A stretch of DNA of 35,069 nt. Origin: Candidatus Omnitrophota bacterium. GTDB lineage: Bacteria > Omnitrophota > Omnitrophia > Omnitrophales > Omnitrophaceae. A program made the position numbers and the translations under genes. Positions 17,754 through 25,680 of the stretch are shown in pieces (the first letter of the stretch is position 1; each line of letters starts with the position of its first letter). Location of the stretch: the NCBI GenBank assembly GCA_016209715.1, contig JACQVP010000011.1:1-35069 (forward strand), given 5' to 3'. Under the pieces are notes generated by a model, which was not told the DNA's origin, ran no database searches, and worked only from the letters and a program-made list of their open reading frames with translations.

Positions 17754-18905
17754 TCAGTACCAGACTTCGGTCCAGGACTTCATATCGTTGCCCGTCACCT
17801 GGGATCCCGGATCGGAGTCCAGCGCCTTGTCGTAGTGGATCTTTCCGTTGCCGCTCATGGCCACGGAATTGCCGGTAAAACTGCCGAAAAACTCGCCGTT
17901 CCCGTTGATGTTGACGGACGATTGGGGCGCGTAAACCTTGCCGTAAAAATTCCCGTTGCCGGTGATGGCCACGCTGCGGCTGCCGCTCACGTTGATGGTG
18001 AGGTTCGGCGGCAGATTCCCGGAAGTGCCGACGCCGTTGCCCGCGATATTCACGTTGCCGTTGACGGTCAGCGTGGCGGTCCCCGAGACATTGAGACGGC
18101 CGTTCCCGGTCACACTGATGGAGGAAAAGCAATGGGTCCCGGCCGCCAGAGAGACCGTGTCGTTTCCGGCGACGGAAAGCGCGGTCGGATTGTTGCAGGC
18201 GGCGACGGGGGTCAGCGTCCGCAGAGACGCGGCCGCGCTTTTGGTCCCCCAAACCTTCGAATAACCGCTCATGGTGATGACGCTGAGCGGGTTCCCGTTC
18301 GGTCCGACGGTGGCGTTTCCTTTGATGTTCACGTTTCCGGACATCATCACAAAACCGGCCCGGATGGTGTTCGTGGCGATGTGGCCCTCACTGCTGGCCG
18401 TGGCCGGCGCGTAGGCGCCATTTCGCGAGTCGTAAGCGTCCGTCTCGACGTTTCCGCTCAATTGGATACTGGTGTTGGAGAAAAGACCCGTCCCGCCGCC
18501 CGTCTGGGCCGGCAGTTCGTACAGGGCGGTGATGTTGCGCTCCTGATACCCGGCGGACGCGGCCGTCGCCCCGACGGTGCCAAGCGCGGCGATGGTGTAC
18601 AAATTCGGATTGGACTGCGACTGGGTCACGGTGGTGCGGTAAGTGCCGGTAGCGCTGCCGTTCGTGGCCCCCGTCGAAGGCACGCCGGCATAAGCGCGGT
18701 TGGTCCTCAAAGTGGAGATGGTTTGGTCCAAGGCGCCTTCGGCCAGATGAAACGCGAACATGCGGTTTTCAAAGCGCTCGGCCGACTGGATCTCCACCAA
18801 ACTCCCGGCCATGAGCGAGACCGAGAGGATGGACATCATGCTGATCAGCCCCAACGTGGCCACCAGCGCCACGCCTTTTTGATTTTTAGCCTTGAATCGC
18901 GTCAT
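17754..18905 (-). CDS. PilX/GspK-like minor pilin with long GN-rich repetitive C-terminal region
   Basis: N-terminus KNQKGVALVATLGLISMMSILSVSLMAGSLVEIQSAERFENRMFAFHLAEGALDQTI; then repeated S/T-GN(G/V) units (MSGNVNIKGNATV, VTGNGRLNVSGTATLTVNGNVNIAGNG, ITGNGNFYGKVYAP, INGNGEFFGSF, MSGNGKIHYDKAL). Confidence 0.8.
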   Translation of the reverse strand: MTRFKAKNQKGVALVATLGLISMMSILSVSLMAGSLVEIQSAERFENRMFAFHLAEGALDQTISTLRTNRAYAGVPSTGATNGSATGTYRTTVTQSQSNPNLYTIAALGTVGATAASAGYQERNITALYELPAQTGGGTGLFSNTSIQLSGNVETDAYDSRNGAYAPATASSEGHIATNTIRAGFVMMSGNVNIKGNATVGPNGNPLSVITMSGYSKVWGTKSAAASLRTLTPVAACNNPTALSVAGNDTVSLAAGTHCFSSISVTGNGRLNVSGTATLTVNGNVNIAGNGVGTSGNLPPNLTINVSGSRSVAITGNGNFYGKVYAPQSSVNINGNGEFFGSFTGNSVAMSGNGKIHYDKALDSDPGSQVTGNDMKSWTEVWY

Positions 18906-18912
18906 AGCCGCC

Positions 18913-19425
18913 TCAATTCCTGAAATCGACCGTGCCCGAAAGCGATATCGGCGTCGTGATCCCGTAATCGGTCGCGTCCTGGGACGTCATCGTAATCGTC
19001 AGTGTCGCGGGGTTCGCGTTCACCGCGAATTGCAAATTCGTAACTTTGTTCGCCAGCACCTCCGTCGCGCCGGTGGTAATGTCCTGGCGCATCAGTTGCT
19101 CGCCGTCTTGGCCGCCCAAACTGTACTGAAGCCAGCCCGACCAGGTGATGTTCCCATTGGCGTCGATCGCGGCCGGTACCTGGAATTGCAGCAATCCCGC
19201 CTGCGGGACGAGGACCCGGGCGAGGTTCGAGTTTCTGAGCTCGCGCGTCATTCTTTCCATCGCCATGCGGGCCTCTCCGGAAAGCCGGGACTGGTTGTAA
19301 GTCACGTCATGGATCCGGGAGCCGCTGTGAAAGGCCTGAATGGTCAACAGCACCACAATGCTCATGAGAAACGTGCTGACCATCCCTTCCAGCAGAGTGA
19401 ATCCGGATTCACGGGTGAGTTTCAT
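18913..19425 (-). CDS. PilW-like type IV minor pilin / pseudopilin
   Basis: MKLTRESGFTLLEGMVSTFLMSIVVLLTIQAF prepilin motif (G|FTLLE). Confidence 0.85.
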   Translation of the reverse strand: MKLTRESGFTLLEGMVSTFLMSIVVLLTIQAFHSGSRIHDVTYNQSRLSGEARMAMERMTRELRNSNLARVLVPQAGLLQFQVPAAIDANGNITWSGWLQYSLGGQDGEQLMRQDITTGATEVLANKVTNLQFAVNANPATLTITMTSQDATDYGITTPISLSGTVDFRN

Positions 19426-19426
19426 C

Positions 19427-19816
19427 TCAGCGCCTCGTCACCTGTGTCACCAGCGACCGGGACATGGCCCGCTGGCGGTCCAGCCAGGTCACCGTGACCG
19501 TGATCTGGAGAGGGTCCTGCGCGGCGTTCGGATAGGTCACGATGATTTGTTCGTTGGTGAGATTGGCGAATCCTGCCACGGCCTGCCCCGAAGGGAAATT
19601 GGCGGCCACGGCGTTAAGACCTTGATTGTTGGCCACGTTGCGAATGCTTTCGATCACCGAATGACCGTCCTGCATGGCGGTCATCACAGAACGGGAGGTT
19701 TCTCCGACCCGGAAGGTGTAAAGATTGACGCCGATCATCCCCATCAGGACGGGGATGACTATCGCGATGGCGACCAAAAGTTCTACGAAGGTAAAGCCTC
19801 GTTGATTTTGTTTCAT
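19427..19816 (-). CDS. PilV-like type IV minor pilin / pseudopilin
   Basis: MKQNQRGFTFVELLVAIAIVIPVLMGMIGVNLY prepilin motif (G|FTFVE). Confidence 0.87.
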   Translation of the reverse strand: MKQNQRGFTFVELLVAIAIVIPVLMGMIGVNLYTFRVGETSRSVMTAMQDGHSVIESIRNVANNQGLNAVAANFPSGQAVAGFANLTNEQIIVTYPNAAQDPLQITVTVTWLDRQRAMSRSLVTQVTRR

Positions 19817-19821
19817 GATTA

Positions 19822-19960
19822 CGGCAACCGGCTGCCATGCCCTCTCGGGGTTTAGGCCCTTTGGCTTTGCCGGCCACCCGCTACTTTCAGCGGGCGCCGC
19901 CCTTTTCGACCCGTCAGGGTTGAGAAAGGGGTCCTATTCTTTCGAATAGTTTGCCTTTAT
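19822..19960 (-). ncRNA. c-di-GMP-I (GEMM) riboswitch-like element with ~60-nt insertion
   Basis: Reverse strand: AUAAAGGCAAACUAUUCGAAAGAAUAGGAC-[60 nt]-GCAAAGCCAAAGGGCCUAAACCCCGAGAGGGCAUGGCAGCCGGUUGCCG. Matches the GEMM-I hallmarks GGCAAAC-[GAAA hairpin]-GGAC..GCAAAGCC..CCUAAACC..AUGxCAGCCGGxUUGCCG from memory. Confidence 0.75.
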
Positions 19961-19972
19961 CGAATCAGTTTA

Positions 19973-20001
19973 AGTATGCCCGGGTGGGGGCTGGAATACA
20001 A
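19973..20001 (-). promoter_or_regulatory. Putative promoter of riboswitch/minor-pilin operon (TTGTAT - 17 nt - CATACT)
   Basis: Reverse strand TTGTAT (20001..19996), 17-nt spacer, CATACT (19978..19973), placing the TSS just upstream of the riboswitch. Confidence 0.55.
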
Positions 20002-20057
20002 CACCGGGGCGAGGGGGGCCTATAAAGCTGTAAGCTATTTATTTTAAAATGGTTATA

Positions 20058-22712: not shown

Positions 22713-23186
22713 CTACACAATCTTAAAGTAAACGGGGACTTGGATGCAGGACAAGATCGGCCGGCCCCCCTTCTTGGCCGGCGCAAACCGCCATTTGCGG
22801 ACGGCCTTCACCGCGGCCAGGTCCAGCATTTTGCGGCCGCTTGATTTCATGACCTGCCAGCGCCCGACCCTTCCGTCCGGCAAAATCTCCACGGCCAGCA
22901 CCACTTCCCCGTTCCACCCGCGCGCGACAGCCCACCGGGGATACACGACCGGCTCGGGTTTCTCTCGCAGATAAGGCAGCTCGAAATCAGCCGTCTCTTC
23001 GCCCGCGGAAAAAATCGTTCCGGGACGGGCGGTCATCCACTGGCGTTTTTCATAGGAATAATAAACCGGAGATTGCGAGATGAAATCTTCGGCCGGGAAA
23101 GAAGTGACGGATTGATCCGCCTCCACCGCGAAGGCGGGCTGGCAAATCAGAAAGAAGACGACTGCAATACGGGTCAGAATTCCCAT
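22713..23186 (-). CDS. TonB C-terminal domain protein (short energy-transducer-like)
   Basis: PVVYPRWAVARGWNGEVVLAVEILPDGRVGRWQVMKSSGRKMLDLAAVKAVRKWRFAPAKKGGRPILSCIQVPVYFKI = TonB C-terminal fold; preceded by a signal-peptide-like segment. Confidence 0.85.
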   Translation of the reverse strand: MGILTRIAVVFFLICQPAFAVEADQSVTSFPAEDFISQSPVYYSYEKRQWMTARPGTIFSAGEETADFELPYLREKPEPVVYPRWAVARGWNGEVVLAVEILPDGRVGRWQVMKSSGRKMLDLAAVKAVRKWRFAPAKKGGRPILSCIQVPVYFKIV

Positions 23187-25360
23187 TTGGTCCCCAGGAC
23201 AAATTCTCTCGGCGCGCCGGGATTGACGAAGGTGTACGTCCCGAAGGGGTAAAGCGCCGTCCCGAAGGAGGTCGCGTTCACCGCGCGGCTGTAATATTTT
23301 TCATCAAAGAGATTATTGATCTTAAAATAAATCATCTTTTCCTTCCACTCATACGAGATGAGAAAATTAAAAACCGCAAACGGCTTGATGTAATGCCCGG
23401 CCCCGCCCGTCGCATTCAAAGTCGCCTGGCTCGCGGATTCGAACGATTGCGGATGCTGGCGGCCGGTAAACACTCCCCCGAACCTCATCTTGAGCCCGTC
23501 GTAAGGTTCGCCGAACCTTGCCAGCGGCGTGAGGGTGGTGCCGAGAGTGAACCGGTTCTCCGGAATCTGTCCCAAGGAGCGGTCGTCAAAAGGCGTTCCG
23601 CCGGGCCCGGTCTCCCGCACATATGACCGCATCCAGGTGTGGCTCGCGAAGAGCCTGATTTCTTTCGCCGGATTTAAATCCACTCGCTGTTCGAGGCCGA
23701 CCCGGCGGCTTTTGGAAATATTGATGTTCTGCCCGAAAGGCGCCGTCGGCCCGATCGCGGTCGAATCGAAAACGATTTCGTCCTCGAGATCGATCAGGAA
23801 GAAGCTCGTTTTATAGGCCGCCACTTCCTTATAGCGGAGCCGTGTCCCGGTTTCATAGCTTTTGGATGTTTCCGGATTCACGCTGGTCGAGACGGTCCCC
23901 CCGAAGGGGGTCACGTCGCTGATCGCCGGGACCCGGAACCCTTCGGAATAATTCACAAACAAATCCGCGAACGGAACCGGCCGCACCGTCAGGCCGGCCG
24001 AGACGGTGCTCTCCCGCCAGCGCCGGCTGAGGCTGTCCGAGGGCGTCAAGAAATCGTGCGTTTCGAGCCAGTTGAAATCGTGGCGCATCCCGACGTAGGG
24101 AATGATCTTGTCGTAGAATTTCAGGGTCTCGCGCCAGAAAAGCGCGGTGTTGTAGGCGGAGACCCCGCGTTCGGTCTCGCGCGGAGAAGATTCGACCACG
24201 TTTCCGCCAAAGGCGTCCTGCTCGACGGAATGGAGGCTTTCGTCGCGGAATTCCATGCCGATCAGCGTTTCATTAAAAAGTTCCTCCCGCCAATAATCCT
24301 CGTATCGGAGCTGCGTGATCAAATTCTGGTCATTGGACTTTACCGTGATGAGGTCCGTGTCCGGATTGAAGGGCGGGTCGGTGAAGGTGCCGCTCGTCGA
24401 AAAGAAATGGAGCAGCAGCGGCCGCCAGCTGTTCATGACCGAGGCCGTGAGATGGTCGTCCCAGAATTTCTTATCGCCGCCGATCTGGATCACGGTATTC
24501 CGGAGGTCGCGGCCGTCGAGGGGCTTGTTGGTCTGCTCCATCCGGTCCTGCGCCTGCTGGAAGGTGAGCTCGCCGGGATTGGAAATCGCATCGTCGACGT
24601 GCTTCACGTTCACGTAAAACCGGCCTTGTTCTTCCGCCAGTTCGTAGGCGGTCTTCACGTCGAACTGAGTGATGCGCCATTCACTGTTTTCGCGCCATCC
24701 GTCGCCGACGTCGCGGCCGCCGTTGAAATAATATTTGAACTTGCCGCCGAGCGGGGTCACCCGGTCCTCAAGCGTCCCGCTCAGCCCCTGGTTAAAATTC
24801 AAACCCCCGAAGCTGCTCCCTTCCAGGCTGCCGAAGGCCTTGACCGGTTTGTCGCTCGGCTGGCCGGTCGTGACGTTGACGACCCCCGCAAAGGCATTGC
24901 TGCCATAGACCGGCGAGGCGGAGCCCCGCTCGACCTGGATCGATTCGACGTCGTTCATGGGGATCAGATGAAAATTCATGGCGCTGCCGTCCACCTCGTT
25001 GACGCGCACGCCGTCCACGAGAAAAACAATGCTGTTCGAACCCGAGAATCCGCGCAGGCCGAAACTCGAATCCCACCCGTTTCCCACCGAGTCGAAAAAG
25101 GTGGCGCCTTCGATCTCCTCGACCGCGTCCTGAAAACGCAGCGGCTGCGCCAGCTCGAGGTCTTCTTCGCCGATGTAGGTGACGTTTGACGGGACTTCGC
25201 GAATGTCTTTTTTGACATTTTGCAGGCGGGAGGCGATGACCATGGCCCGGGCCGGAGGGGCGGCCTTCATTTCCCGGGGCTTTTCGTTTTCTTGGCTCCA
25301 GACGGGAGTCTGTCCGAGGAAAATAAAAAAGAAGGCTAGAAAAAAGCAATGCCGCTGCAT
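23174..25360 (-). CDS. TonB-dependent outer membrane receptor, probably cobalamin (BtuB-like)
   Basis: MQRHCFFLAFFFIFLGQTPVWSQ signal; plug domain (EVPSNVTYIGEEDLE..SFGLRGFSGSNSIVFLVDGVRVNEVDGSAMNFHLIPMNDVESIQVERGSASPVYGSNAFAGVVNVTT); C-terminal ...FVLGTKWEF. B12 specificity inferred from the upstream riboswitch. Confidence 0.88.
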   Translation of the reverse strand: MQRHCFFLAFFFIFLGQTPVWSQENEKPREMKAAPPARAMVIASRLQNVKKDIREVPSNVTYIGEEDLELAQPLRFQDAVEEIEGATFFDSVGNGWDSSFGLRGFSGSNSIVFLVDGVRVNEVDGSAMNFHLIPMNDVESIQVERGSASPVYGSNAFAGVVNVTTGQPSDKPVKAFGSLEGSSFGGLNFNQGLSGTLEDRVTPLGGKFKYYFNGGRDVGDGWRENSEWRITQFDVKTAYELAEEQGRFYVNVKHVDDAISNPGELTFQQAQDRMEQTNKPLDGRDLRNTVIQIGGDKKFWDDHLTASVMNSWRPLLLHFFSTSGTFTDPPFNPDTDLITVKSNDQNLITQLRYEDYWREELFNETLIGMEFRDESLHSVEQDAFGGNVVESSPRETERGVSAYNTALFWRETLKFYDKIIPYVGMRHDFNWLETHDFLTPSDSLSRRWRESTVSAGLTVRPVPFADLFVNYSEGFRVPAISDVTPFGGTVSTSVNPETSKSYETGTRLRYKEVAAYKTSFFLIDLEDEIVFDSTAIGPTAPFGQNINISKSRRVGLEQRVDLNPAKEIRLFASHTWMRSYVRETGPGGTPFDDRSLGQIPENRFTLGTTLTPLARFGEPYDGLKMRFGGVFTGRQHPQSFESASQATLNATGGAGHYIKPFAVFNFLISYEWKEKMIYFKINNLFDEKYYSRAVNATSFGTALYPFGTYTFVNPGAPREFVLGTKWEF

Positions 25361-25459
25361 GGATCGTGTCTTCCGCACGGGAAATCTCCTTGGCCTCTCG
25401 CCGGCGGGAATCCATGTCAGGGAGTGAGCATGATCTTCTCTCGCCGGAGAAGAAAGGCG

Positions 25460-25680
25460 GTTGTGGCCCAGGCAGGTCTTCTGACTCCCGGCTTTTCCCA
25501 AGCGTCCTCATGCTTGGGAGTTTCTACTCTCCGCGTCTTCCCACCCGCTCCTTCCGGAGCGGGCAGTGACTTTCTTGCGGATTTCGTACCGGTTACAGCG
25601 GCGGGACCGTGACGGATTTTCACCGTCTTCCCTTCGCCTGTGCCGTGAATGAATGGGTGACCTCAAAGATCGAAAAGCGT
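25460..25680 (-). ncRNA. Cobalamin (B12) riboswitch
   Basis: Reverse strand GGCACAGGCGAAGGGAAGACGGTGAAAATCCGTCACGGTCCCGCCGCTGTAACCGGTACG...AGTCAGAAGACCTGCCTGGGCC: classic B12-box conserved segments. Confidence 0.95.

Follow-up and report, generated by a model that had tools for sequence, protein, structure and literature searches.

The best described relatives of the RNA analysed here are the c-di-GMP-I riboswitches, represented by Vc2 of Vibrio cholerae and the Rfam family RF01051. The core sequence, the helices P1, P2 and P3, the GNRA tetraloop, the pocket residues, the position in a 5' leader and the type of genes are alike. In the RF01051 consensus, however, GAC and GCAAAGCC are contiguous, whereas our RNA carries 60 nt between them, in two hairpins that would give P2 a four-way junction at its base. 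The c-AMP-GMP riboswitch (GEMM-Ib) of Geobacter has the same fold, but its members carry A at position 20, where our RNA has a G (G19955), and no comparable insert in GEMM-Ib is reported in the literature searched. The c-di-GMP-I-GGC family (RF03167) belongs to the same clan; the RF03167 copy at locus L083, discussed below, is without insert. In the PRPP aptamer (ykkC subtype 2) an added helix makes a known core a four-way junction (PMC6031431), but both aptamer and ligand are unrelated, and a single closing helix is involved in ligand recognition there, in contrast to the two inserted hairpins found here.

The window, a stretch of 35,069 nt from an Omnitrophota genome of the same family as Candidatus Omnitrophus fodinae, was compared with Rfam 15 using cmscan. 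RF01051 matches at 19820-19965 on the minus strand with 48.5 bits (E 1.1e-6; cut-off 35 bits) and is the best clan match at the locus, rather than RF03167. The alignment spans the full model, and the insert is bridged solely via a local end. In shuffled window sequence, 0 matches to a pattern of core plus insert are expected. The sequence-only reading had recognised the GEMM-I hallmarks in order on the reverse strand; they do lie there in that order, and the search allowing insertions upholds the family assignment. The window contains a further riboswitch at 25454-25656 (minus strand), of the cobalamin class (RF00174, 90.6 bits), which lies just ahead of a TonB-dependent-receptor-like gene (23174-25501). 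The elements of the aptamer and its operon are as follows.

19961-19966, minus strand: P1, 5' strand GATTCG, 6 bp with CG(t)AATC at 19823-19817 (by inspection)
19955-19960, minus strand: J1/2, ATAAAG (Rfam alignment)
19955-19950, minus strand: GGCAAA (sequence)
19953-19954, minus strand: lower P2, 5' side GC, with partners G19870 and C19869 (Rfam consensus structure)
19934-19949, minus strand: upper P2 hairpin CTATTC-GAAA-GAATAG, perfect 6-bp stem with GNRA tetraloop (sequence and Rfam)
19931-19933, minus strand: GAC (Rfam alignment)
19900-19930, minus strand: insert hairpin A, 31 nt (fold; site and covarying stems common to 94 RNAs)
19871-19899, minus strand: insert hairpin B, 29 nt, abutting A (fold; recurrence and covariation)
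19863-19870, minus strand: GCAAAGCC, with the lower P2 3' side, A19868 and the start of P3 (Rfam alignment)
19826-19866, minus strand: P3 hairpin with CCTAAACC and AG (G19832) (Rfam alignment)
19817-19824, minus strand: C19824 and P1 3' strand CGTAATC, with ATG immediately after (sequence and Rfam alignment)
19427-19816, minus strand: pilV-like gene for a minor prepilin, at the head of the controlled operon (PF07963 N_methyl, E 1.1e-6)
18913-19425, minus strand: pilW-like prepilin (PF07963 just below the cut-off, 20.9 vs 21.2 bits)
17754-18905, minus strand: pilX-like protein with DUF7305 (PF23981, E 1.4e-15)

The P1 register agrees with the Rfam alignment, and the P1 pairing recurs in the full-length fold. 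On the minus strand GCAAAGCC is followed by CCTAAACC, then GGCAGCCGGTTGCCG and then the pilV ATG (19816-19814). P2, with its GAAA tetraloop on a perfect 6-bp stem, and the aligned P3 hairpin are both present. By the Rfam alignment, and in Vc2 numbering, G19955 is the equivalent of the ligand contact G20, A19868 that of A47, which intercalates in the ligand, and C19824 that of C92, which pairs with a guanine of c-di-GMP. All three pocket residues are kept, and both residues that would form the long-range pair C44-G83 are present (C19931 and G19832). Because the pocket is intact, c-di-GMP rather than c-AMP-GMP is predicted as the ligand.

The insert occupies 19930-19871 of the minus strand, between GAC (19933-19931) and GCAAAGCC (19870-19863), and its length is exactly the 60 nt claimed beforehand. 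Folded alone it reaches -33.4 kcal/mol (z -4.3), and 0 of 200 shuffles were as stable. The two hairpins touch one another and both flanks. The fold bears out the earlier description of abutting hairpins, one of 31 and one of 29 nt, except that hairpin A contains small internal mismatches. Again by the alignment, C19931 corresponds to C44 of Vc2 and G19870 to G45, which places the extra domain beside the pocket, next to the ligand-binding junction as had been proposed. In the Rfam alignment the same two nucleotides are equivalent to C37 and G38 of the pilM aptamer. There, C37 pairs with G66 of P3, right above G38, which belongs to the lowest P2 pair, and the counterpart of this contact in Cd1, C35-G79, is required for binding (PMC9262584). 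By the alignment and these data, the insert separates the nucleotide through which P2 contacts P3 from the pocket-side P2 pairs. Since two hairpins intervene where the canonical architecture is contiguous, the window RNA is a variant within the c-di-GMP-I family. An Actino-ugpB match of the insert in Rfam (29.4 vs 42.5 bits) is below the cut-off and was read as chance.

To collect such RNAs, the GTDB genome collection was scanned with a structure-blind pattern in which the core is fixed on either side of 36-66 free bases; ordinary aptamers in tandem were left out, as were matches that lacked a P2 stem, and loci from relatives were added. Of the resulting 74 distinct inserts, 72 form exactly two hairpins and leave no more than 4 bases unpaired outside them, against 6.4 expected from dinucleotide shuffles; the mean z is -5.1. 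With shorter and longer inserts from Omnitrophota genomes included, the set grew to 94 distinct c-di-GMP-I RNAs with inserts of 33-96 nt, located between the same two nucleotides in all 94. Two hairpins are formed in 90 of them, and 75 of the 94 have no unpaired base at all before, between or after the hairpins; stretches of equal length beside the same aptamers were never of this perfect kind (0/267). In the minimum-energy fold at full length both hairpins and P2 form together in 70/90 members. The strict pattern misses members such as L004, L051, L054 and L055, which have GGC for GAC or another P2, and the counts are therefore lower bounds.

The stems of both hairpins covary strongly, with 4-6 standard pair types at each of the outer base pairs of A and B, whereas about half of these positions are paired once partners are shuffled or slid. 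Among perfect members, pairing of the outermost positions follows from how the set was selected, so that the control fractions are the unbiased evidence. The loops vary freely in sequence and size, and the hairpins in length; there is no conserved loop sequence, the lengths of A and B show no correlation, and GNRA loops occur in 6/90 members for each hairpin, too few to suggest docking. In five members (L189, L199, L200, L204, L205) A and B are partly complementary and could pair as one long structure, perhaps reflecting a duplication or a conformational switch. Another kind of expansion, with extra hairpins within the P2 tetraloop hairpin and not at its base, was seen in relatives at L040, L047, L048, L049, L050, L053, L056, L058 and L061.

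The gap between GGAC and GCAAA was measured across 286 Omnitrophota genomes. It is 0-3 nt in 105/286 genomes, 4-34 nt in 2, 35-65 nt in 40 (a count that includes two non-member genomes, G007 with a tandem and G046 with a chance match) and 66-96 nt in 16. The two short gaps, of 33 and 34 nt, again hold two hairpins. Single-hairpin inserts were absent from the 286 genomes in a search able to detect those of 12-34 nt. This two-hairpin rule may be explained by the geometry of P2, since a perfect four-way junction would keep P2 continuous and a three-way junction would bend it.

Nearly all members come from Omnitrophota, including Velamenicoccus archaeovorus, which has an expanded copy (L184) in a complete chromosome. 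Beyond this phylum, members were found in one Auribacterota genome (L140, L163, L168), one genome labelled Elusimicrobia (L084), one 'PVC group' bacterium (L147) and one further bacterium (L116). Matches in Acetothermia, Bipolaricaulota and Bacillota, each either a tandem of ordinary aptamers or due to chance, were removed. Expanded copies in tandem with an ordinary aptamer occur at L024 and at L083 (1475-1552 and 1659-1737, minus strand), where the ordinary copy, of the RF03167 type, lies behind the expanded one.

The window genome has two ordinary c-di-GMP-I copies (L001, L002) and two expanded ones, the window copy and L004 (contig C106, 1454-1632, minus strand). The latter reads GGCAAAC-TATTCGAAAGGATAG-GGC-[CCCTCGCATACAAGGTGCGAGGG][CGGCCGCC...GGGCCGGCCG]-GCAAAGC, and its Rfam alignment is wrong. 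It precedes a paralogous pilV-pilW-pilX operon, with PilV 30% identical (E 9e-18). Between the two copies the core is nearly letter-identical; the hairpins have diverged in sequence and kept their structure. A terminator lies behind the L004 aptamer; its 3' arm, TTTCGAATAG, is exactly complementary to CTATTCGAAA, the 5' strand of P2 together with the loop, and may take part in antiterminator pairing.

Taken together, we read the window RNA as representing an expanded, so far undescribed subclass of c-di-GMP-I aptamers, centred on Omnitrophota. The suggestion of an expanded GEMM subclass is supported by the family match, the recurrence of core and two-hairpin insert at the same site in related genomes, and the covariation of the insert stems. 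We take the expanded form as new because the open literature searched does not mention Omnitrophota or Omnitrophica with riboswitches, the reviews consulted say nothing of a junction inserted into c-di-GMP-I, and Rfam at its gathering threshold recovers only 2/18 tested expanded loci.

The genes downstream fit with control by c-di-GMP. Behind expanded copies we found type IV prepilins (8/81), response regulators (6), transglutaminase-like/LapG-like proteases (4), glycoside hydrolases and secreted proteins; the window genome encodes 8 GGDEF domains. A small protein family with the typical stretch RVVTFLNRQELDFLD, absent from the Pfam tallies, stands right behind the expanded copies L095, L114, L134, L136, L143, L148 and L197 and is perhaps a regulator of the c-di-GMP response. 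An intrinsic terminator follows within 260 nt in 45/87 expanded copies (6/243 in the control), and members with such a terminator behind the aptamer probably act on transcription. Pairing of the terminator 5' arm with the aptamer is weakly supported as a general rule (mean 5.87 vs 5.64 +/- 0.16), so that we do not claim a common expression platform. At L003, L079, L094, L155 and L194 the aptamer ends a few bases before a start codon, which P1 abuts or includes. In the window, 6 nt separate the pocket C-C from the ATG, with no recognisable terminator and, in agreement with the sequence-only reading, no visible Shine-Dalgarno sequence ahead of the ATG. The plausible promoter suggested just upstream was not recovered (0 sites in a sigma-70 consensus scan). 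A GC-rich hairpin, GCCCCGGTG...CACCCGGGC, lies directly upstream of the aptamer at 19978-20010 (minus strand).

We propose, with reasonable though not full confidence, that the window copy is an expanded c-di-GMP-I riboswitch with a perfect four-way junction in P2, which binds c-di-GMP and acts as an OFF switch. With hairpins A and B in place, the internal loop of P2 would become a perfect four-way junction, in which lower P2, upper P2, A and B meet. Upper and lower P2 could then remain stacked, with the tetraloop still docking on P3, and A and B may form a second stack bracing the pocket. c-di-GMP would bind at the P1/P2/P3 junction, as in Vc2. The bound aptamer would lock P1, whose 3' strand abuts the pilV AUG, and block ribosome entry, and, judging from this geometry, high c-di-GMP would mean less product of the minor-pilin operon. 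Translational repression of pilV by c-di-GMP is likely because P1 abuts the start codon.

The window copy might instead be a c-di-GMP-I riboswitch that works as an ON switch, or one that controls transcription or RNA stability and does not mask the start codon. Both ON and OFF switches of this class are on record (PMC9262584), and an ON response is implied at L057 and L189, where the 5' arm of the terminator is the 3' strand of an aptamer. The window, however, has no terminator and just 6 nt from the pocket C-C to the ATG, so that little besides the start of translation can be controlled there; we regard such a mode as unlikely, though it keeps appreciable weight. A separate functional module in A and B, for example a site for a protein or for a second ligand, which gates c-di-GMP binding, would agree with the conserved presence of the insert beside the pocket. 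Yet A and B have no conserved loop or internal sequence, and their loops are no more complementary to each other or to P3 than in mismatched pairs, a comparison that also gave no kissing loops among A, B and P3; we therefore consider this improbable.

Insertion of a dispersed palindromic element (REP/BIME-like) into the riboswitch, where it has no role, is more doubtful still. Some inserts are indeed strong palindromes, some relatives contain a few GTCCGCC-GGCGGAC palindromes, and A and B are related to each other in a few members (L189, L199, L204). The window insert, by contrast, is single-copy in its own (69% complete) genome, from which the GTCCGCC palindrome is absent, and the constant site, the constant number of two hairpins, the lack of a common loop sequence and the compensatory changes all speak against a repeat-element origin; the own-genome search and the palindrome count did not support it, and it is largely refuted. 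Decay into a non-functional riboswitch with a chance insert could account for an Rfam score below that of the best copy of the same genome (48.5 vs 69.1 bits), but it is hardly credible for an RNA that keeps all pocket residues, has covarying insert stems and shares its architecture with a paralogous copy in the same genome.

The preferred reading, an expanded aptamer with a four-way junction in P2, implies that a classic riboswitch core tolerates a whole four-way junction beside its ligand pocket, and that one phylum keeps it. The two-hairpin rule makes these RNAs a clean natural test case for the tuning of a well-studied aptamer by the architecture of a junction, and a hidden part of the c-di-GMP regulon is uncovered in a phylum known mostly from metagenomes. 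Our more speculative suggestion, for which we would claim little likelihood at present, is that the junction alters aptamer function, by changing affinity, on-rate or dinucleotide preference, or through a pre-docked state for very low c-di-GMP. If this is true, the c-di-GMP response of Omnitrophota would have two tiers, with canonical and expanded aptamers side by side in one cell.
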